Positions 46,637 through 62,529 of a stretch of 62,570 nt of DNA are shown here, in pieces; within the stretch, counting starts at the first letter, position 1, and each line of letters opens with the position of its first letter. The stretch is taken from contig DASQWI010000027.1 in the NCBI GenBank assembly GCA_035640355.1, positions 1 to 62,570 on the forward strand. Reading direction: 5' to 3'. This DNA comes from Actinomycetota bacterium (lineage in GTDB: Bacteria; Actinomycetota; UBA4738; HRBIN12). A program made the position numbers and the translations under genes. The notes beneath the pieces were generated by a model. That model saw nothing but the letters and a program-made list of their open reading frames with translations. It made no database searches and was not told the origin of the DNA.

Positions 46637-47587
46637 ATGATGGCCGAACTCAAGCGCAGGCTCTTTGGCGGTTACACCTCGGAGAGCGTCGAGGAGGTGC
46701 TCTCCGAGAAGGAAGAACTGCTCGACGGCGCCTCGAAGGACGCCAGCGTGACGGAGCAGCTGGAGAGCGTGTCGTCCCAGCTGGCCGAGACGCAGGGTCG
46801 GCTCGCGGAGCTCGAGAGCCAGCTCGCGGCCGCTCAGGAGCTCTCTACGTCGCTGACCGCGGATCTCCAGGGATCAGTTGCTCAGCGCGAGTCCTTGGAA
46901 GCCGAGGTTCTCCCCCTGCGCAACGAGCTCGAGGAATTGCGCAACGCGCAAGCGGAACGCCTGGCGACCGCCGAGGTGCCGGGGAGCGATGAGTCGTTGC
47001 AACGGGCCCTCGACGAGGCTGCCGAGTACAAGGCAACGGTGATCGCCCAGCAGCAACGCATGACCGAACTCGAACACCTCGTCGAAGGCTATCGGGAGCT
47101 GATCGAGAGCGAAACGCCAATCGCGGCGCCGGCCAAACCGAGCGAGGAGGAGCGGCCCACCCCGAAGACCGCGAGCGAGCTGGCCGCAGTGATCGAGGTC
47201 GCCGAACAGGCGGTCGCGAACATCCTTGATTCCACTCGGGTCCGTGCGGACGAGGAGCTCCGCGCCGTCGACGTCGAGAGAGAGCGGATCGAGCGGGACA
47301 TCGAATCGATGACGTCATGGCGAGATCGAGCCGCGCCGATGATCGCCTCGCTGCAAGCCGCCCTGGACGAAATCAAGATTCAAGCACTGGAGATCGGCCG
47401 AGGTATCGACGACGCCCTTCGCCCGGTCGCGACCGCCGTCGACGGCCTCACCGCACAGTTGGCGTCCCTGGACGACCTCGCTCGAGCACCTGTTGAGTCG
47501 ACGGAGACCCCGGCTCCATCCGAGGACGACGGCGTGACGGTGATCCCGGAGGACCCCCCACCGAACCCCGACGTCCAGGACGGGTAG
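46637..47587 (+). CDS. DivIVA-like coiled-coil protein
   Basis: 316 residues, acidic, almost all helical. The N terminus KRRLFGGYTSESVEEVLSEK resembles the membrane-binding start of DivIVA (the aromatic FGGY pair), then an uninterrupted coiled coil (about 25-145), a Pro linker (about 155-175, ETPIAAPAKPSEEERPTPK), a second helical part (about 176-275) and a disordered tail. No homology to a named family beyond this likeness. ATG 46637 (46640 possible) has AAGGACG upstream. Perhaps a polar or septal scaffold. First gene of the unfamiliar part of the window. Confidence 0.65.
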   Translation: MMAELKRRLFGGYTSESVEEVLSEKEELLDGASKDASVTEQLESVSSQLAETQGRLAELESQLAAAQELSTSLTADLQGSVAQRESLEAEVLPLRNELEELRNAQAERLATAEVPGSDESLQRALDEAAEYKATVIAQQQRMTELEHLVEGYRELIESETPIAAPAKPSEEERPTPKTASELAAVIEVAEQAVANILDSTRVRADEELRAVDVERERIERDIESMTSWRDRAAPMIASLQAALDEIKIQALEIGRGIDDALRPVATAVDGLTAQLASLDDLARAPVESTETPAPSEDDGVTVIPEDPPPNPDVQDG

Positions 47588-49065: not shown

Positions 49066-49659
49066 ATGTTGAGGCGACGAGACCCGCAGGACGGACAGGA
49101 TCTGGACGAGCCGGACGAACCCGGAATCAGGGAAACCCTCGGCCCTCAGATGACCGTGGTGGGACGTGGGACCCAGCTGGAGGGAACCCTGTTGTCAGCC
49201 GAGTCGATCCGCATCGACGGAGAGGCCAGGGGGACGATCGCCGCGCGAGGCGACGTGATCCTCTCTTCTCACAGCCACGTAGAGGCCGATATCCGGGCCG
49301 AGAACGTGGTGATGGGTGGAGAGCTCAGGGGCAATATCCGTGCGCGAACGAGGACCGAGCTGGCCGCCGGTGGCCGGCTGGTGGGGAAGATCCGATCGAA
49401 GCTCTTGGTGGTGAGAGAGGGTGCCCAGTTCTCCGGCCAGTCGAGCGTAGACCTCCACGACGCCCCAGACGAGACAGGGGGGTCTGCGTTGCCGGAAGAC
49501 GAGCTGTGGAATGCGTATGAACAGGCGACACGCCGAGCCGCCGACTGGTACAAGGCGAAACTCGATGGATCGTCCGCCGAGCCGGAGGACGAGCGCGACC
49601 TAAGCCCCGTACTTCCGGTCTTCCAGGCGGTCGAGACCAGTCCACATCGGCGCGACTGA
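49066..49659 (+). CDS. Bactofilin (polymer-forming cytoskeletal protein)
   Basis: 197 residues. The DUF583 beta-helix core (about 28-125) begins with TVVGRGTQLEGTLLSAESIR, then IDGEARGTIAARGDVILSSH and EADIRAENVVMGGELRGNIR, the regular six-residue turns of bactofilin. Flanking tails are acidic and disordered. Bactofilins polymerise without nucleotide and place wall enzymes or signalling proteins in bacteria. ATG 49066 has AGGAG upstream. Confidence 0.92.
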   Translation: MLRRRDPQDGQDLDEPDEPGIRETLGPQMTVVGRGTQLEGTLLSAESIRIDGEARGTIAARGDVILSSHSHVEADIRAENVVMGGELRGNIRARTRTELAAGGRLVGKIRSKLLVVREGAQFSGQSSVDLHDAPDETGGSALPEDELWNAYEQATRRAADWYKAKLDGSSAEPEDERDLSPVLPVFQAVETSPHRRD

Positions 49660-52445: not shown

Positions 52446-53159
52446 TTATGCGCCTTCAGAGAGGTCAACCGCGACGAGACCCGACCGGGCCGCCTCGATC
52501 ACCGCACTAACCCGACTGTTGACGCCGAGCTTCCCGTAGATGCGACCGAGGTGCGTCGTGACGGTCCTCTCGCGAACGCCGAGGTGGCGTGCGATCTCGC
52601 GCGAGGTCAAACCACGTGCAGCGGCCCTCAACACCTCTTGTTCGCGCGTCGTCAGCCGATGCGCGATCTGTCGCCTGCTGTCGATGCCGTCGGCGATGGG
52701 CGCCATTCGGTCAACAGGCGTGCCGGCCATAACCACCTCGCCCTGAGCTGCCCGCTGGATCGCCTGGAGGAACTCGGCCGGATCGACATTCTTGTCCAGG
52801 TACCCATCGGCTCCCATGAACATCGCCCGGGAGATCGTCGCGGCATCCGCCCCCGCCCCCGATACCAGGATCGTGGCCTTTGGATAGCTCTCACGGAGCG
52901 TCCCGATCAACCACAGGGAGTCGCGCTCGCCGGGAAGTCCAAGGCCCACCAGGAGGACTGGCCGACTGCGCCGGACCCGTCGCATGGCTTCGAGACAGTC
53001 GTCGGCCGAGCCCGCTTCGGCAAGGACCTCCATCTCCTGCCGGTCGCCGATGAGCTTGCCCAGGCCGGAGCGCACGACGGCGAGCGGCTCCACGACGACC
53101 ACACCCAGTCGCGGTCGCACGCGCTCCGCGCTCAACTTTCGTCCCGTCCCCTTCGCCAT
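52446..53159 (-). CDS. LuxR/NarL-type regulator with degenerate receiver
   Basis: 237 residues. The receiver-like part (about 16-135) begins RLGVVVVEPLAVVRSGLGKL. Where the phospho-Asp should be the sequence is VLLVGLGLPG, with Gly in its place; of the acidic pocket only one Glu remains; the switch Lys is present (YLDKNV). The C-terminal LuxR helix-turn-helix is normal: LTTREQEVLRAAARGLTSRE and VTTHLGRIYGKLGVNSR. Probably acts without phosphorylation, perhaps as partner of the two neighbouring regulators. Confidence 0.85.
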   Translation of the reverse strand: MAKGTGRKLSAERVRPRLGVVVVEPLAVVRSGLGKLIGDRQEMEVLAEAGSADDCLEAMRRVRRSRPVLLVGLGLPGERDSLWLIGTLRESYPKATILVSGAGADAATISRAMFMGADGYLDKNVDPAEFLQAIQRAAQGEVVMAGTPVDRMAPIADGIDSRRQIAHRLTTREQEVLRAAARGLTSREIARHLGVRERTVTTHLGRIYGKLGVNSRVSAVIEAARSGLVAVDLSEGA

Positions 53160-53221
53160 TCCCCGGATGTATCGGCGGCTTCTTCGACCACTTGCGCCGT
53201 CGATGCGCCGACCCGCGAGGT

Positions 53222-53917
53222 TTAGCGCGTGCGGCCGAACTCGATGAGGCCGAGCGACGCGCCCTGGGCCATCGCCTGCACACGCGTCTTGACCCCGAGC
53301 TTGCGATACAGCTTGGTGACGTGCGACTCGACGGTGCGATGGGAGATCCCAAGGCTCGTCCCCACCTGCCGCAGCGTGAGCCCGTCGGCCAGCAGCTGCA
53401 GGATCGTGATCTCGCGCCGAGTGAGCGTCGGTGAAACGGCTCGTGCCGCACGTGCCAACCGGCCGAGCTCCTGAACGGCGGCCCGCTCGTGCTCGGGTGG
53501 GAAGACGGGTTCGCCGCGGGCGACGACAAGCATGGCCGACGCCACGTCGTCGATCGCGGCGCTCTTCGCCAGGAACCCGTGGACACCGCTCCGCATGGCC
53601 GCGAGGACGGTCTCACCGTCCTCTCGGGCCGTGAATATCAAGACGCGAGCCGGGCTCCGGGATTCGCGCAGGCGGGCTGCCACTTCGAGCCCGCCCATCC
53701 TCGGCAGGGTCAAGTCCAGCACCACGAGATCGGGAGCGACGCGCTCGCAGAGGGCGAGCCCCTCTTCGCCGTCCTGCGCCTCGCCCACGACCTCGAGCCC
53801 TGCCGTTGCGGCGCAAGCGATCGAGACGACCTGTCGGAGGACGACGTCGTCGTCGATGATCACGACGCGAAACGACGGCGATCGGCGATCCGGCGACGTC
53901 CGAGATCCCTGAGCCAT
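53222..53917 (-). CDS. LuxR/NarL-type response regulator (intact receiver)
   Basis: 231 residues. Receiver FRVVIIDDDVVLRQVVSIAC, phospho-Asp in LVVLDLTLPRMGG, Thr in LIFTARE and Lys in GFLAKSAA are all in place. LuxR-type helix-turn-helix: LTRREITILQLLADGLTLRQ, then HRTVESHVTKLYRKLGVKTR. Middle gene of three regulators on one strand, 62 bp before the next. No histidine kinase with a complete catalytic set is nearby. Confidence 0.9.
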   Translation of the reverse strand: MAQGSRTSPDRRSPSFRVVIIDDDVVLRQVVSIACAATAGLEVVGEAQDGEEGLALCERVAPDLVVLDLTLPRMGGLEVAARLRESRSPARVLIFTAREDGETVLAAMRSGVHGFLAKSAAIDDVASAMLVVARGEPVFPPEHERAAVQELGRLARAARAVSPTLTRREITILQLLADGLTLRQVGTSLGISHRTVESHVTKLYRKLGVKTRVQAMAQGASLGLIEFGRTR

Positions 53918-53937
53918 ACCGGTTCCCAGGTGACCCC

Positions 53938-54642
53938 TCAGCCTCCCCGGAGCTCCGCTCGAGCCGCTCCAACTGGGCCGGGCGGGATCGGTGCGAGCCC
54001 TTCGCGCCAGGCCAGCGTGACGGCCTCCACTTTCGAGTGAACGCCGAGCTTGGCCAGAATGTGCTTCACGTGGCTCTGGACCGTGAGTGGGCTGATCCCA
54101 AGCACCTCGGCGGTCTCCCCTGTTCCGCGACCAGCCGCGAGCTCGCGGAGGATGTCCATCTCGCGGGCCGTGAGGCGCTCGAGCGCGCGCTCCTGCACCT
54201 GCGACCGAGTTCGGGTCCGATGGAGCTCGTTCAGCACGTGGACGAGGTCCGCCTCCGGCATCACCACCTCGCCGCCGACGGCGTACCCGATGACCTCGGC
54301 GAGCCGCTCGATCCCGTTTGACTTCTGGGCGTACCCCGACGCACCGGCGGTCAGCGCCTCCACGATCAGCTCAGTGGCTTCGTTCGCGGTCAGGGCGATC
54401 ACCTTCGCCTCCGGGCATTCCGAGCGCAGACGCCGGATCGCGTCGACGCCTGCTCGACCAAGGGAATCGAGATCCACCAGCACGACATCGATACGATTCG
54501 TCGTACAGAGGCTGATCGCAGCCTCGACGTCGGCCGCCGAGCCGACCACGGAAAGGTCGAACCGGCCGTTCACGTGACGCGCTAGGCCCGGAGCAATCGT
54601 GTCGCCGTCGCCGACCACGAGAACGCGAACGCCGGCATCCAT
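53938..54642 (-). CDS. LuxR/NarL-type response regulator (first of three)
   Basis: 234 residues from ATG 54642; the frame is also open to ATG 54717. Receiver VRVLVVGDGDTIAPGLARHV with a single usable acid pair, phospho-Asp in VVLVDLDSLGRAG, Thr/Ala in VIALTANEA, and Lys in YAQKSNG. LuxR helix-turn-helix LTAREMDILRELAAGRGTGE and TVQSHVKHILAKLGVHSKVE. It leads the regulator trio and ends 21 bp before the next gene. Confidence 0.87.
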   Translation of the reverse strand: MDAGVRVLVVGDGDTIAPGLARHVNGRFDLSVVGSAADVEAAISLCTTNRIDVVLVDLDSLGRAGVDAIRRLRSECPEAKVIALTANEATELIVEALTAGASGYAQKSNGIERLAEVIGYAVGGEVVMPEADLVHVLNELHRTRTRSQVQERALERLTAREMDILRELAAGRGTGETAEVLGISPLTVQSHVKHILAKLGVHSKVEAVTLAWREGLAPIPPGPVGAARAELRGG

Positions 54643-54814
54643 GGTGCCGAAAGCATCGGCATCGTGCTTCGATCGCCTGAGCCGCGCAGTGCGTTCTCGG
54701 ATCGATGCGGTCAGCATCTAGCCATCGGTCGACGGCCGTCTCTGGCTCCGCTCCCCCGCGACGCCTACGCAGCAACGCGGCGCCGCATTCCGACAGACCG
54801 ACGCTGATTGAGGA

Positions 54815-56824: not shown

Positions 56825-57505
56825 ATGTTCGGACACGTTGCCGGGCGCCCGCGACGGTGGCCATGGGTGGTCCTGTCCTTCCTGTTTGCGATGGCGTTTG
56901 CTTCGTCGTTCGCCGTCATGGAAGTCACGTCAGAGGTGCAGATCGACGCCGACGTGTTGAACATCATCCGGATCGGAACGGCGGTTGGATTGGGACTGTC
57001 CTTGTTGCTTCTCCTCTTTACGTTCAAACGCGGCCGCCGCGCGAAGGGCGAGACGGCGGGCAACGATGGGACGGAAGAGCGACCGCCCGCAGAGAAGCAC
57101 GTTCAGACCTATGAAGAGGTCTTCGGCGTTCAGCACGATCTCGACGAGGGAGGTCTTCCTCACGCGCCCGAGGGCGAGGAATCGCTGAGCGAGGAATGGC
57201 AGAAGGCCGAAGAGGTGATGGTTGATGGCGACGGGCTACCATCGGAGCAGCAGGAGCCGGCGGAGGTGCCCGCTTCCACTTCCGAAGACGATCTCCAGCC
57301 CGTCCAAGCTGATGTCGACGGATCGGTCGAGAAACCCCAGTCGGATGATCAGGTCGAGTCCGGGGACGCCGACGTCGACTCCGATCAGCACCTCCGCAAG
57401 ATCCGGGAGGAGTTCAAGGCCAGGGTCGAGGAGGCCGCGCTCCGGGTCAAGCAGCGGGAGGGCGACCCTCACGAGGCCGCATCCGCACCGAATCCCGAGC
57501 GATGA
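56825..57505 (+). CDS. Two-pass membrane protein with TYEEVFG motif
   Basis: 226 residues. Helix 1 (about 13-33, WVVLSFLFAMAFASSFAVME), a short outer loop, helix 2 (about 47-66, IIRIGTAVGLGLSLLLLLF), then a long acidic cytoplasmic tail. The motif QTYEEVFGVQHDLDE is at 94-108; the C terminus has a helix HLRKIREEFKARVEEAALRV. The next gene has both motifs. ATG 56825 has GGGGGGA upstream. No known family. Its stop overlaps the next start as ATGA. Confidence 0.75.
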   Translation: MFGHVAGRPRRWPWVVLSFLFAMAFASSFAVMEVTSEVQIDADVLNIIRIGTAVGLGLSLLLLLFTFKRGRRAKGETAGNDGTEERPPAEKHVQTYEEVFGVQHDLDEGGLPHAPEGEESLSEEWQKAEEVMVDGDGLPSEQQEPAEVPASTSEDDLQPVQADVDGSVEKPQSDDQVESGDADVDSDQHLRKIREEFKARVEEAALRVKQREGDPHEAASAPNPER

Positions 57506-58683
57506 TTGGGGTGTCTGCGGGCCGCGGGCGACGGGTCGTTTGGGCGATCCTGTCGGTTTTGTTCGTCGTCGGCTTTGGCGTCTCCACGTTCGTGGTGGGC
57601 TCCGAGCGGAACGCGGCCCTCGACGATGTAGCCAAGCGTGCGCGCAACGAGGCGCAGTTCGTGAAAGACACCCTGACCGGCAGGCAGTTCACCAAACCGG
57701 TCACCGGTTCGAGCTACGACGACGTCGCAAACAAGATCTATAGGTCGATCTCAGAGGGATCCATCGCCGGCGTGACCGTTTGGTCCTCACACGGCCGTGT
57801 CGTCTTTTCGTTGAACGAGTCGCGGGTGGGGAACGCGCCGTCGGAGATGCGGTCGCTCATTACGAGGACTGCAGTGGGATCGGGATCGACGCGGGTCGTC
57901 GACGACACTGTGCAGACGTTCACCCGCATCTCGAAGACGCCCGACGGTCCGGTCGCGATCGTGCAGGTCGATCAACCGGCCGCTTCGGTTGAGGCCCGGA
58001 TCGACGACCTCTGGAGCACGCTCCGGATGGGATCCGTCTTCGGACTGGCGGTTTCGCTGCTGCTCCTCGGCCTGACGTTCGTTTCGTCGAGGAGACGGGC
58101 ACGCGCGCCAGAGGACGATGTTCGGCCCCCGGAAGACGCTGGCGCGGAAGTGAAGGCCGCGCGGCAACCGGCGGCCACAACGCCTACCGAGCAACGCCAA
58201 CCCACCTATGAAGAGATCTTCGGTGCACAACACCATCCCGACGAGGCGCTTGCTCCTGCCGAGCTCGATGGCGGTCCCGCGCACCAGGAGTCGACGCCGG
58301 AACCCCGCGAAGTGGTCCACGAGGGTTCCCTCGACGGCAATCTCGAGCCCCGATCTCAGGAGTCGATGCAGGAGCCGCGCGAAAAGGCTCCTGTAATGGC
58401 CCCCGCCGGCGATCACCAATCACCGCCGGTGCCAAAACCGCGTGAAGAGGTTCAGGACGTCGCCCTCGACGCCGATGTCGAGCACAGGTCGCAGAAGTCG
58501 GTGCCGGTGCCGGAGCCGCGGGAAGACGCGCTCGACCCTGCGCTCGAGAGCGACCCTCGGATCCAAGCGATACAGCAGCGGCGCGAGGCGTTCAAGGCCA
58601 AGGCACAGCAGGCAAAGCTCCGCCTCGAGCAGGTGGAGAACGAGTTCTACGAGGCTTCGTCGGGTCGGAAATCTGAGGGATAA
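57502..58683 (+). CDS. Sensor-like membrane protein with outer domain and TYEEIFG motif
   Basis: 393 residues. Helix 1 (about 12-33), an outer domain of about 140 residues (34-174) with a Cache/PAS-like alternation (SIAGVTVWSSHGRVVFSLNE, FTRISKTPDGPVAIVQVDQP), helix 2 (about 176-197), then a cytoplasmic tail. The motif PTYEEIFGAQHHPDEA is at 234-249. Two Pro/Glu-rich repeats follow (EPREVVHEGSLDGNLEPRSQ and KPREEVQDVALDADVEHRSQ) and a final helix AIQQRREAFKAKAQQAKLRL. There is no kinase, HAMP or cyclase domain. Translationally coupled to the preceding paralogue. Confidence 0.8.
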   Translation: MIGVSAGRGRRVVWAILSVLFVVGFGVSTFVVGSERNAALDDVAKRARNEAQFVKDTLTGRQFTKPVTGSSYDDVANKIYRSISEGSIAGVTVWSSHGRVVFSLNESRVGNAPSEMRSLITRTAVGSGSTRVVDDTVQTFTRISKTPDGPVAIVQVDQPAASVEARIDDLWSTLRMGSVFGLAVSLLLLGLTFVSSRRRARAPEDDVRPPEDAGAEVKAARQPAATTPTEQRQPTYEEIFGAQHHPDEALAPAELDGGPAHQESTPEPREVVHEGSLDGNLEPRSQESMQEPREKAPVMAPAGDHQSPPVPKPREEVQDVALDADVEHRSQKSVPVPEPREDALDPALESDPRIQAIQQRREAFKAKAQQAKLRLEQVENEFYEASSGRKSEG

Positions 58684-58698
58684 GCGAGGGGACGGACC

Positions 58699-61600
58699 AT
58701 GGGCGACATGACTGAGATCGAGACCGGCGAAGAAACGACCGCTCCCCCCATGCCCGTCGGAGCCGCGGTGTCACAAGCGGGCGAAGAGCTGAAGCGGGCT
58801 GCCGAGCGGCTCCTGGCGAGAGAGGAAGGACAGGCCAAGCAGGCCGAGGCTCGAGCTCGGGAGGCGGCGGAGCGGGCCAGCCGTGCCGAGCGCCGCGCTC
58901 AGACAGCGGAGGAACAGCTCAGGGAAGCGGCCACGCTGATCCAGGCCGCCGAGTCCGAATCCACGGCAGCTGCGGAACGGGCCAGGATGGCGGAGCTCCG
59001 CGCGCAGACCGCGGAGGAACAGGCCCGGGAGGCAGTCGACCGTCTCGAGGCAGCGCAGGAGGAGAGCAACCAGCGGGCTGAGGAGCTCAGCAGACAGGCC
59101 GAGCAGCGGGCCATGGAACAGGTGCGCGAGGCGGAGGTCCGGGCGGAGAGCGGCGAGGAACGGGCGAGGCAAGCCGAGCTTCGCGCGGAGGAATTGGACG
59201 AGCAGATCTTGCAGGCCAGCCAGCTCATCCAGGTCGCCGAGGCCCAGGCCACCAGCGCCGACGAGCGCGCCAGAGCTGCCGAGGAGCAGATAGAAGGGCT
59301 CACTCACCGCGTCCGGGTCGCCGAACAGGAATCCCAGCAGATCGGCGATCGCATCCGGGCCTCCGACGAACGGGCCCGGGAAGCGGACGAGCGGGCCAGG
59401 GCCGCCGAGGAGCAGATCGAACGGTCCACCCAGCGCGCCCAGGTTGCCGAGCAAGAAGCCCTGCAGATCCGCGAGCTCATCCAGGCCGCCGATGAGCAGG
59501 CCAGGATGGCCGACGAGCGGGCCAGGGCCGCAGAGGAGCAGGTCGCTGGACTCTCCGATCGCCTTCGTGCTGCGGAGGAAGACGCCAATAGTTGGCAGGA
59601 GCGACTGAGTCAGGCGGAGCGCCGGGCGCAGGAGGCGGAGGAGCAAGCGCTACAGGCCACCGAGCTCATCCAGGCCGCCGAGGATCAGGCCAGGAGGGCC
59701 GACGGGCGGGCACAAGCCACCGAGGAGCAGATCGCCGAGCTCACCGAACGGACCCAGGCCGCCGAGGACGACGCGAACAGAGCGCAGGAGCGACTGAGTC
59801 AGGCGGAGCTCCGAGCGCAGGAGGCAGAGGAACAAGCTCGTCAATCCGCCGAGCTCATCCAGGCCGCTGAGGAACAGGCCAGAAAGGCAGACGGACGGGC
59901 CCGCGCCACCGAGGAGCAGATCGCTGAGCTCACGGAGCGCCTCCGGGCGACCGAGGAAGAGGTCACGCAGCTCACTCAGGCCGCCGACGAGCAGGTGGTG
60001 CAGGCCAACGAGCTCATCCAGGCCGCCGAGGACCAGACGAGGCAGGCCGACGAACAGGCTCAGGCTGCTCAGGCGCAGATCGGAAAGCTCACGAATCGGC
60101 TACGTGGCGCCGAGGAAGAGATGGCTCTGGTCACGCAGCAGCTCAGAGCGAGTGAGGAGCAGGTCGCCCAGCTCACCCAGGCCGCCGAGGAGCAGGCCGC
60201 GAACACGGACCAACTCGTCAAGGCCGCTGAGGAGCAGGCCAGGAAGGCCGACAAGCGAACCAGGGCGTCCGAGGAGAAGATCGCGGAGCTCACCGGGCAG
60301 CTCCAGGCCGCACAGGCGGATGTCGCACAGCTGACTCAGGCCGCCGACGAACAGGTCGTGCAGGCCAACGAGCTCATCCAGGCGGCCGAGGACCAGGCGA
60401 GGCAGGCCGACGAGCAGGCCCAGGCCGCGCAGGAGCAGATCGGCAAGCTCTCCAATCGACTGCGGGGCGCCGAGCAAGAAATGGCTCTGGTCACCCAGCA
60501 GCTCAGGGCCGCTGAAGAAAATTCAGCTCAGCTCTCGGATCGGCTCCAGGCTGCGGAGGGAGAGGTCGCACAGCTCACCAGGGCCGCCGACGAGCAAGTC
60601 GTGCAGTCCAACGAGCTCATCCAGGTCGCCGAGGACCAGGCCAGGGAGGCCGACGAGCGGGCCCAGGCCGCCGAGAGGAAGATCGGAGAACTGACCAAGC
60701 TCGTCCAGGCCGCCGAGGAGCAAGCCGAGCAGGCAAACCAGCTCATCCAGGTCGCCGAGGACCAGGCCAGGGAGGCCGACGAGCGCGCCCAGGCCGCAGA
60801 GGTCCAGATCGGAGAGCTCACGGAGCGGCTCAGCAAGGCGGAGGAAAGCGCCTCACAGCTCACCCAGCTCGTCGAGGCCGCCAACGAGCAGTCGGTGCAG
60901 GCCAACCAGCTCATCCAGGTCGCCGAGGACCAGGCCAAGAAGGCCGACGAGCGGACCCAGGCCGCCCAGGAGGAGATCGGACAGCTCACCGAGCGTCTCC
61001 GCGTCGCGGAGGAAGGTGCCTCCGAGGTCACAGAGCGGCTCCGGGTGTCGGAGGAACAGGCCGCCCAACTCGCCCACGCGGTCGATGAGCAGGCCCTGCA
61101 GGCCAACCAGATCATCCAGGCCGCCGAGGACCAGACCAGGAGGGCCGACGAGCGGGCCACGGCCGCCGAGGATCGCGCCCACGCCGCCGAGGAGCAGATC
61201 GGCCAGCTCACCGAGCGGCTTCGGGTCGAGACGGAGAAGGGCGTTCTGCTCAGCCAGACGCTGGACGCCAAGGAGGAGGCCGCGAGGGAACAGGCTACGC
61301 AGCTGCTCGCCGCCGAGACCGCGACCAAACAGATCGAGGTCCGCGCGCAGGCCGCCGAGGAGCAGGTCGAACAGCTCACACCGCGCCTCCAGGCCGCCGA
61401 GGAGCAGGCCAGCACCGCCGCCGCCCGCCTTCTGACGGCGCAGGCGGAGGCTCAGCAGGCCGAACTTCGGATGCGAGCGGCGGAAGAGAAGGCCGAGGAC
61501 GCCGTCAGGCGTATGAGGGCCGCGGAGGATGAGGCCCACCAGGCCACGGCGTCGGCGCTGGTCGCCGAGACCAAGGTCAAGCAGGCCGAGGTGCGGTCGC

Positions 61601-62529
61601 GATCAGTGGAAGATCAGTCGGCGGGGACCGCCTCGAAGAACGCGGAACTTCTCGAGCAACTGCAACAGGCACGAGGGGAACTGGTGGGCGCCGAGGAACG
61701 AGCGCGCCTCAGCGAGGAACGGTTCCGGGAGGCCAGCCAGCGGGTCGAGGTCTTCGAGCAGCAGATCAAGGAGCTCAAGGTGCGGCTGTCGGTGGCGAAG
61801 ACCGACCTACCCGTCGGCGCCGTCGCAGACAAGGAGCGAAGCGCCCTTTCGGACGCGGTGGCCACGGAGGTGCGCCGGCCGCTCACGTCGATCCTCGGCG
61901 TCACCATGGCACTTCGACACAACGATCCCGACTCCCGTGACGGCCAGGAGCTGGTACGACAGCTCGGGACCAGCGCACGCAAGCTCGATCGCATGCTGAA
62001 CGTGCTCCTGGAGCTCGACAGGCTCGCCGACGGGACCCTCAGGCTGAATCGCCGCCGTACCGACCTTCAGGCGTTGATGCGCCGGGTGGTCGAGGAAACG
62101 CCGGATCTGGCGAGCCGGAACATGCATGTGGAGGCCCAGAAGGTCGTCGTGCCGGTCGACCCTTCCATGGTCGAGCAGATGATCGAGACCCTCCTGGCCA
62201 ACGCCACATCGCGCACGTCGTCCGGCGACCCCGTGTGGATCGCCGTTTCGAGCGACCCCGAAGGCGCCGTCATCGCCGTCGACGACATGGGTCCCGACGT
62301 TCCCAAGGAGCTGCGCAAAGCCCTCGCGGGCGAGCACACGGACGGCGCGGGTAGAGGCCGGGCGTCGACCGGCATGGCCGTGCTGCAGAGACTCGCCGAG
62401 GTCCATGCCGGCAGGGCCTGGGTCGAGCCACGAGAAGGTGGAGGCGCCTCGTTCCGCGTGTTCCTGCCAGACACGACGGAGGCAGACGCGGCAGGCGCCA
62501 CTCAGGCCGCCCCGCAGCATGGCGAGTGA
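58699..62529 (+). CDS. 1276-residue coiled-coil protein with degenerate histidine-kinase domain
   Basis: About 1000 residues (20-1035) of near-continuous Ala/Glu/Gln-rich coiled coil, with at least nine copies of a module like ELIQAAEDQARQADE and EEQIAELTERLRAAEE. The C-terminal 230 residues have a histidine-kinase-like order: a HisKA-like helix ATEVRRPLTSILGVTMAL, where the phospho-acceptor His is Thr1056; an N box IETLLANATSRTSSG (Asn1168); a G1 box DDMGPDVP, where the second Gly is Asp1200; and a G2-like STGMAVLQRLAEVHAGRAWV. Hence no autokinase is expected, though nucleotide might still bind. ATG 58699 begins 15 bp after the sensor-like gene. No signal peptide or membrane helix: a large cytoplasmic scaffold. 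Confidence 0.85.
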   Translation: MGDMTEIETGEETTAPPMPVGAAVSQAGEELKRAAERLLAREEGQAKQAEARAREAAERASRAERRAQTAEEQLREAATLIQAAESESTAAAERARMAELRAQTAEEQAREAVDRLEAAQEESNQRAEELSRQAEQRAMEQVREAEVRAESGEERARQAELRAEELDEQILQASQLIQVAEAQATSADERARAAEEQIEGLTHRVRVAEQESQQIGDRIRASDERAREADERARAAEEQIERSTQRAQVAEQEALQIRELIQAADEQARMADERARAAEEQVAGLSDRLRAAEEDANSWQERLSQAERRAQEAEEQALQATELIQAAEDQARRADGRAQATEEQIAELTERTQAAEDDANRAQERLSQAELRAQEAEEQARQSAELIQAAEEQARKADGRARATEEQIAELTERLRATEEEVTQLTQAADEQVVQANELIQAAEDQTRQADEQAQAAQAQIGKLTNRLRGAEEEMALVTQQLRASEEQVAQLTQAAEEQAANTDQLVKAAEEQARKADKRTRASEEKIAELTGQLQAAQADVAQLTQAADEQVVQANELIQAAEDQARQADEQAQAAQEQIGKLSNRLRGAEQEMALVTQQLRAAEENSAQLSDRLQAAEGEVAQLTRAADEQVVQSNELIQVAEDQAREADERAQAAERKIGELTKLVQAAEEQAEQANQLIQVAEDQAREADERAQAAEVQIGELTERLSKAEESASQLTQLVEAANEQSVQANQLIQVAEDQAKKADERTQAAQEEIGQLTERLRVAEEGASEVTERLRVSEEQAAQLAHAVDEQALQANQIIQAAEDQTRRADERATAAEDRAHAAEEQIGQLTERLRVETEKGVLLSQTLDAKEEAAREQATQLLAAETATKQIEVRAQAAEEQVEQLTPRLQAAEEQASTAAARLLTAQAEAQQAELRMRAAEEKAEDAVRRMRAAEDEAHQATASALVAETKVKQAEVRSRSVEDQSAGTASKNAELLEQLQQARGELVGAEERARLSEERFREASQRVEVFEQQIKELKVRLSVAKTDLPVGAVADKERSALSDAVATEVRRPLTSILGVTMALRHNDPDSRDGQELVRQLGTSARKLDRMLNVLLELDRLADGTLRLNRRRTDLQALMRRVVEETPDLASRNMHVEAQKVVVPVDPSMVEQMIETLLANATSRTSSGDPVWIAVSSDPEGAVIAVDDMGPDVPKELRKALAGEHTDGAGRGRASTGMAVLQRLAEVHAGRAWVEPREGGGASFRVFLPDTTEADAAGATQAAPQHGE

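Follow-up and report, generated by a model that had tools for sequence, protein, structure and literature searches.

Near the end of the window (the whole 62,570-nucleotide stretch of DNA analysed here) lie two coupled genes for small membrane proteins, and the question they raise is what they sense and to which protein they hand the signal. Our preferred answer, drawn from computational evidence and held with somewhat better than even confidence, is that genes 1 to 3 of this uncultured soil actinobacterium encode a single receptor in split form, a Cache-type sensor that works through a histidine pseudokinase (Table 1).

Table 1. Positions and make-up of genes 1 to 3 and of their parts, in window coordinates.
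Feature	Position	Strand	Description
Gene 1	56825..57505	+	226 aa: TM1 and TM2 joined by a short loop, then an acidic linker containing TYEEVFGVQH and a C-terminal helix
TYEEVFGVQH of gene 1	57107..57136	+	aa 95-104
C-terminal helix of gene 1	57383..57463	+	DQHLRKIREEFKARVEEAALRVKQREG; BLASTP paralogy
Gene 2	57502..58683	+	393 aa: Cache-like extracellular domain (predicted) between TM1 and TM2, then an acidic, Pro-rich linker containing TYEEIFGAQH and a C-terminal helix
Cache-like sensor domain (predicted)	57598..57996	+	aa ~33-165 of gene 2; AlphaFold2, Foldseek
TYEEIFGAQH of gene 2	58204..58233	+	aa 235-244; stands roughly where relatives have PAYxxP[GD][FY]R
C-terminal helix of gene 2	58552..58662	+	DPRIQAIQQRREAFKAKAQQAKLRLEQVENEFYEASS; BLASTP paralogy
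Gene 3	58699..62529	+	1276 aa: long coiled coil, DHp and HATPase_c; proposed partner
Coiled coil of gene 3	58756..61788	+	~1,010 residues, 1 proline, hydrophobic period 3.52 residues
Thr1056 codon	61864..61866	+	At the phospho-acceptor His position: ATEVRRPLTSILG vs SHELRSPLTSILG in canonical kinases
HATPase_c domain	62158..62475	+	N-box Asn present (LLANA); F and G2 boxes degraded

The three genes are tightly spaced. The ATG of gene 1 stands a few bases 3' of a GGGGGG run, its stop codon overlaps the start of gene 2 by 4 bp (ATGA), 15 bp separate gene 2 from the start of gene 3, and the contig ends 41 bases past gene 3. The first-pass annotation had described genes 1 and 2 as coupled paralogues, and BLASTP bore this out, aligning the two proteins across TM2, the linker and the terminal helix with E = 3e-15 and, in a second segment, over TM1 with E = 3e-6. 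Judged by these alignments, genes 1 and 2 are true paralogues, gene 1 being the copy that has lost the Cache-like sensor domain. The linkers of both proteins are acidic, as had been proposed (29% acidic residues in gene 1, 23% in gene 2), while the description of them as Pro-rich suits gene 2 (15% Pro) better than gene 1 (7.5% Pro); the gene 2 linker contains an internal repeat with a 45-residue offset. Neither protein matched a Pfam family, and NCBIfam, searched with gene 2 alone, gave no family either. Pfam likewise found neither a HAMP nor an MCP signalling domain in genes 1 to 3, so that the locus lacks the domains expected of a methyl-accepting chemoreceptor. Among 41 genomes we found no orthologue of gene 1, which is present in its own genome only. 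The same genome holds two further paralogues of the sensor (G000:C17 and G000:C22), both away from any kinase-like gene; the first of these (G000:C17:11350-12078) terminates directly after PAYMQPGYREEVEARRRAEEAEAPRS and is not followed by a coiled coil.

Gene 2 was modelled with AlphaFold2 from two sequences, those of the window and of MAG AC_69, giving a mean pLDDT of 66.6 and higher values in the extracellular domain, whose blocks reach ~67-86. The predicted topology runs from a long N-terminal helix through a short helix, two strands, a helix and three strands to a second long helix. When this model was compared with solved structures using Foldseek, the matches were mostly extracellular Cache/PDC-type receptor domains (WalK, KinD, TlpQ, Tlp3, DctB and CitA), the best four having E-values of 6.7e-5 to 1e-3. 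The predicted fold supports a Cache (PDC/PAS-like) assignment, and with it the proposed difference between a short loop in gene 1 and a Cache/PAS-like domain in gene 2; together with the two transmembrane helices it also supports gene 2 as a membrane receptor. The Pfam Cache models had no match in gene 2, nor was any among the 25 families listed for 15 aligned proteins, and a profile of the sensor searched against the sequences of solved structures gave DcuS as its best match, at a non-significant E of 0.26. Profile searches placed the sensor domain in 53 of 296 Actinomycetota genomes, where, outside the present locus, it heads true histidine kinases, GGDEF/EAL proteins or bare coiled coils and also occurs with GAF and HD-GYP-like domains (the latter named by eye from the sequence). 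Naming this domain, for which no matching Pfam model turned up, would improve the annotation of many kinases and cyclic-di-GMP enzymes.

The cytoplasmic tails of genes 1 and 2 share the motif TYEE[VI]FG[VA]QH. The first-pass annotation was right that the motif is common to both proteins and placed its start off by one residue in each. The two copies are identical at 8 of 10 residues, the best 10-residue match in 300 shuffles being 7 of 10. The absence of the motif from other proteins, together with a lack of interaction, had been named as what would refute the idea. The exact motif has two matches in its own genome (genes 1 and 2) and none among the contigs of 84,980 species, a set to which this genome possibly does not belong; a looser pattern run over 296 genomes of the phylum returned the same two matches only. 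Taken literally this outcome tells against the receptor idea, which survives because the family has many homologues of the protein as a whole. Being confined to this genome, the exact motif cannot be a conserved docking site of the family, and its use as a widespread docking sequence is rejected. Near the motif's place several relatives carry PAYxxP[GD][FY]R (five occurrences in 61 genomes, four of them within this sensor family), which indicates that the place is conserved and the letters are not. Since gene 2 has no long coiled coil and the rod lies in gene 3, the motif and the terminal helix are the obvious candidates for holding that rod, and the motif may serve as a docking site or contact.

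What, then, is gene 3? Its long coiled coil contains tandem repeats, many of them multiples of 21 bp, and if unbroken would form a rod of ~150 nm (1,010 residues x 0.1485 nm) between sensor and core. Behind the rod, Pfam recognised HATPase_c (2e-13) and, weakly, HisKA, the latter rising above the cut-off (1.8e-6) when the core alone was searched, and a profile of the core matched the solved structures of HK853 (~2e-19) and DivL (4q20). DHp and CA are therefore recognisable in gene 3, yet the phospho-acceptor His and an intact N/G1/F/G2 set are both missing, the boxes reading LLANA (N), DDMGPD (G1), ALAGE (F) and RASTGM (G2). The core aligns directly to canonical kinases of related genomes, which have SHELRSPLTSILG, and judged by its sequence it is a histidine pseudokinase. 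The predicted structure of the kinase-like core has low confidence (pLDDT 52.4). A His residue, His1074 (window 61918-61920), lies exactly 18 residues past the lost phospho-acceptor.

The relatives of these proteins show how the parts belong together. In at least six genomes (G002, G006, G008, G009, G013 and G016) the sensor, a linker and the DHp-CA core are encoded in one open frame of 744-1264 codons, with 292-579 residues between sensor and core, and G003 has the same fusion as far as its contig extends. The split arrangement recurs in MAG AC_69 (G010, VAYX01000042), where a sensor gene is followed by an adjacent kinase-like gene (40% and 64% identity). In Bacterium HR12 (G015) the kinase-like gene is immediately preceded by the tail of a coiled coil and the sensor is on a separate contig; we infer that the two genes are probably adjacent there as well. 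Both genomes belong to the same family as that of the window, and a published MAG table places the genus AC-69 in UBA4738, HRBIN12 of Actinomycetota (PMC13248718), which makes an origin of the window in this uncultured family very probable. Since sensor, coiled coil and kinase-like core form a single polypeptide in relatives, the earlier proposal that the signal is handed to another protein gains support, and the recipient is most likely the coiled-coil protein downstream, gene 3. At one further locus (L145:1536-5729, G005:C160) a sensor and a histidine-less core share a frame with a single stop codon between them, reflecting either fission or a sequence error.

Loss of the phospho-acceptor is general in this group. 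Every one of the 14 histidine-less cores in the tree has T, G, A, L, M or Q for the H-box His; canonical kinases from these genomes retain SHELRxPL. A search with the fused-core profile, which tells histidine-less from canonical proteins, found histidine-less cores in 14 of 17 genomes of the family and in none of 10 other genomes of the order; the three family genomes without one are G001 (only 67% complete), G004 and G011, and several of the genomes are incomplete. The split forms group together with support of 99/94, the fused forms with 100/99 and the canonical kinases with 99/99. Fused cores are the more degraded, being without the N-box Asn, the ATP lid and G2, and the DHp-CA of the split clade has many invariant residues. 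A Paenibacillus match (L101) was judged from its low identity (26%) to be an ordinary kinase. With a receptor-attached pseudokinase kept, fused or split, in most of its genomes, the family offers a natural experiment on signalling by dead kinases, and the two forms also inform how a coiled coil can lengthen between sensor and core.

Some members have no kinase core at all. Proteins with sensor and coiled coil but no core occur in G003:C15, G004 and G012:C93; that of G004, a related sensor and coiled coil at the syntenic place with no pseudokinase, implies that the sensor can exist without one. Kinase-less proteins of this kind end in LRxRLAxxAARKK in G002:C109, G003:C15, G006:C17, G012:C93 and G013:C26, and the five occurrences of this pattern in 27 genomes each fall where such a protein lies. 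We considered whether the FKA[RK] helix of genes 1 and 2 corresponds to this ending; the likeness is weak by eye and was set aside.

In the split receptor that we favour, gene 2 would sense an extracellular ligand or the state of the envelope through its Cache-like domain. Gene 1, which from its make-up alone is a plausible co-receptor, would mix into the receptor as a sensor-less duplicate and may tune it. The cytoplasmic tails, with the TYEE[VI]FG[VA]QH motif, the acidic linker and the terminal helix, would hold the coiled-coil rod of gene 3, and the rod would carry a conformational change to the DHp-CA core, which, unable to phosphorylate itself, could offer a response regulator or a true histidine kinase a docking surface that can be switched. 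The fusions, the gene order, the loss of the His, the distribution over the family compared with the rest of the order, the Cache-like fold and the tight spacing all speak for this reading. Against it stand the restriction of the motif to one genome, the lack of an orthologue of gene 1, the G004 sensor without a pseudokinase and the N-box Asn of the split-clade core, with which this core may still bind ATP.

The main rival, which we consider unlikely, is structural: the locus would encode a membrane-anchored coiled-coil scaffold or cytoskeletal protein, with the Cache-like domain as a mere tether and the core as a relic that serves only in dimerisation, and no signalling would take place. A rod of more than 1,000 residues suits a scaffold, as do the several relatives that have sensor and coiled coil without a kinase core and the bactofilin gene at 49066-49659. 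A mere relic, however, would not need the many invariant residues of the split-clade core, DHp-CA has been retained across most of the family, and the same sensor domain elsewhere heads true histidine kinases and GGDEF/EAL proteins. It is distinctly improbable, in our estimation, that genes 1 and 2 are independent of gene 3 and merely its chance neighbours, say a membrane pair that senses stress and has a partner of its own; the repeated fusion and conserved order in relatives and the tight operon layout in the window argue against this, even though the two additional sensor paralogues of this genome and the sensor of G004 do stand apart from any such kinase-like partner.

A kinase that remains active with a moved phospho-acceptor seems very improbable. 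The phosphate would be taken by the His 18 residues on, five helical turns away on the same face, and among the rows listed for the tree 12 of the 14 histidine-less cores have a His at +18, the 8 canonical ones having none; the split clade also retains the N-box Asn and the first Asp of G1. However, the fused members are without the N-box Asn, ATP lid and G2, so that conservation of the +18 His extends to cores that seem unable to bind ATP, and the site lies far from where CA reaches DHp.

Among known systems, genes 1 to 3 are best read, by analogy, as working somewhat like DivL of Caulobacter, in which the core has been repurposed to sense a phosphorylated response regulator and which has, within one protein, Tyr at the H position (Ala in one species), intact N/G1/F/G2 boxes and PAS domains (PMC4211667). 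Both have a core without the phospho-acceptor His, and in both sensor and core would belong to one signalling chain. Unlike DivL, gene 3 has Thr, degraded F and G2 boxes and a ~1,000-residue coiled coil, with the Cache-like sensor on a separate protein, and a Pfam scan of genes 1 to 3 found no PAS domain; membership of the DivL family was rejected on the Thr, the degraded boxes and the lack of a Pfam PAS match. Division of a kinase's function over two proteins is also known from Hik36-Hik43 of Synechocystis, a split histidine kinase made of two interacting proteins; there the cut falls between the phosphotransfer and catalytic parts, and the two genes lie far apart (PMC7656254), whereas here the sensor is cut from an inactive-looking core. 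With the Cache sensor histidine kinases WalK, KinD, DctB and CitA the locus shares a predicted extracellular fold between two transmembrane helices, and it differs from them in that the likeness is at the level of fold, with no Pfam Cache match, no HAMP found and separate chains. The fused proteins of the family itself have the same domains in the same order and differ in being one polypeptide, in a more degraded CA, in having no TYEE motif and in lying beside sbcD and sbcC in five of six cases. Histidine pseudokinases are rarely described: among 5.39 million open papers the term led to five, DivL being one of their subjects, and the literature on split kinases and on Cache domains with coiled coils contained no description of the system of genes 1 to 3.

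In six relatives the genes ahead of the receptor-pseudokinase gene, all on its strand, are an uncharacterised gene, sbcD and sbcC; the loci with this neighbourhood are L023, L182, L183, L184, L186 and L193, and also L021, L022 and L032. On its other side most relatives have a thiolase or acyl-CoA dehydrogenase. The uncharacterised sbcD/sbcC-linked gene has no match in the window's genome, and the window locus has other upstream neighbours. That the family as a whole has a Cache-like receptor, split or fused, acting through a histidine pseudokinase that is in no case an enzyme, and that with sbcD and sbcC as the most frequent neighbours it may link envelope sensing to the processing of DNA ends, is a speculation to which we give little credence.

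Within 12 kb upstream of the locus in the window are the bactofilin gene mentioned above (Pfam 6.3e-24) and a gene for a coiled-coil protein (46637-47587). Three NarL-type response regulators are encoded upstream on the minus strand (52446-54717). One of them (52446-53159) has Gly at the expected phospho-acceptor Asp (VLLVGLGLPG), and may thus be a pseudo-receiver.
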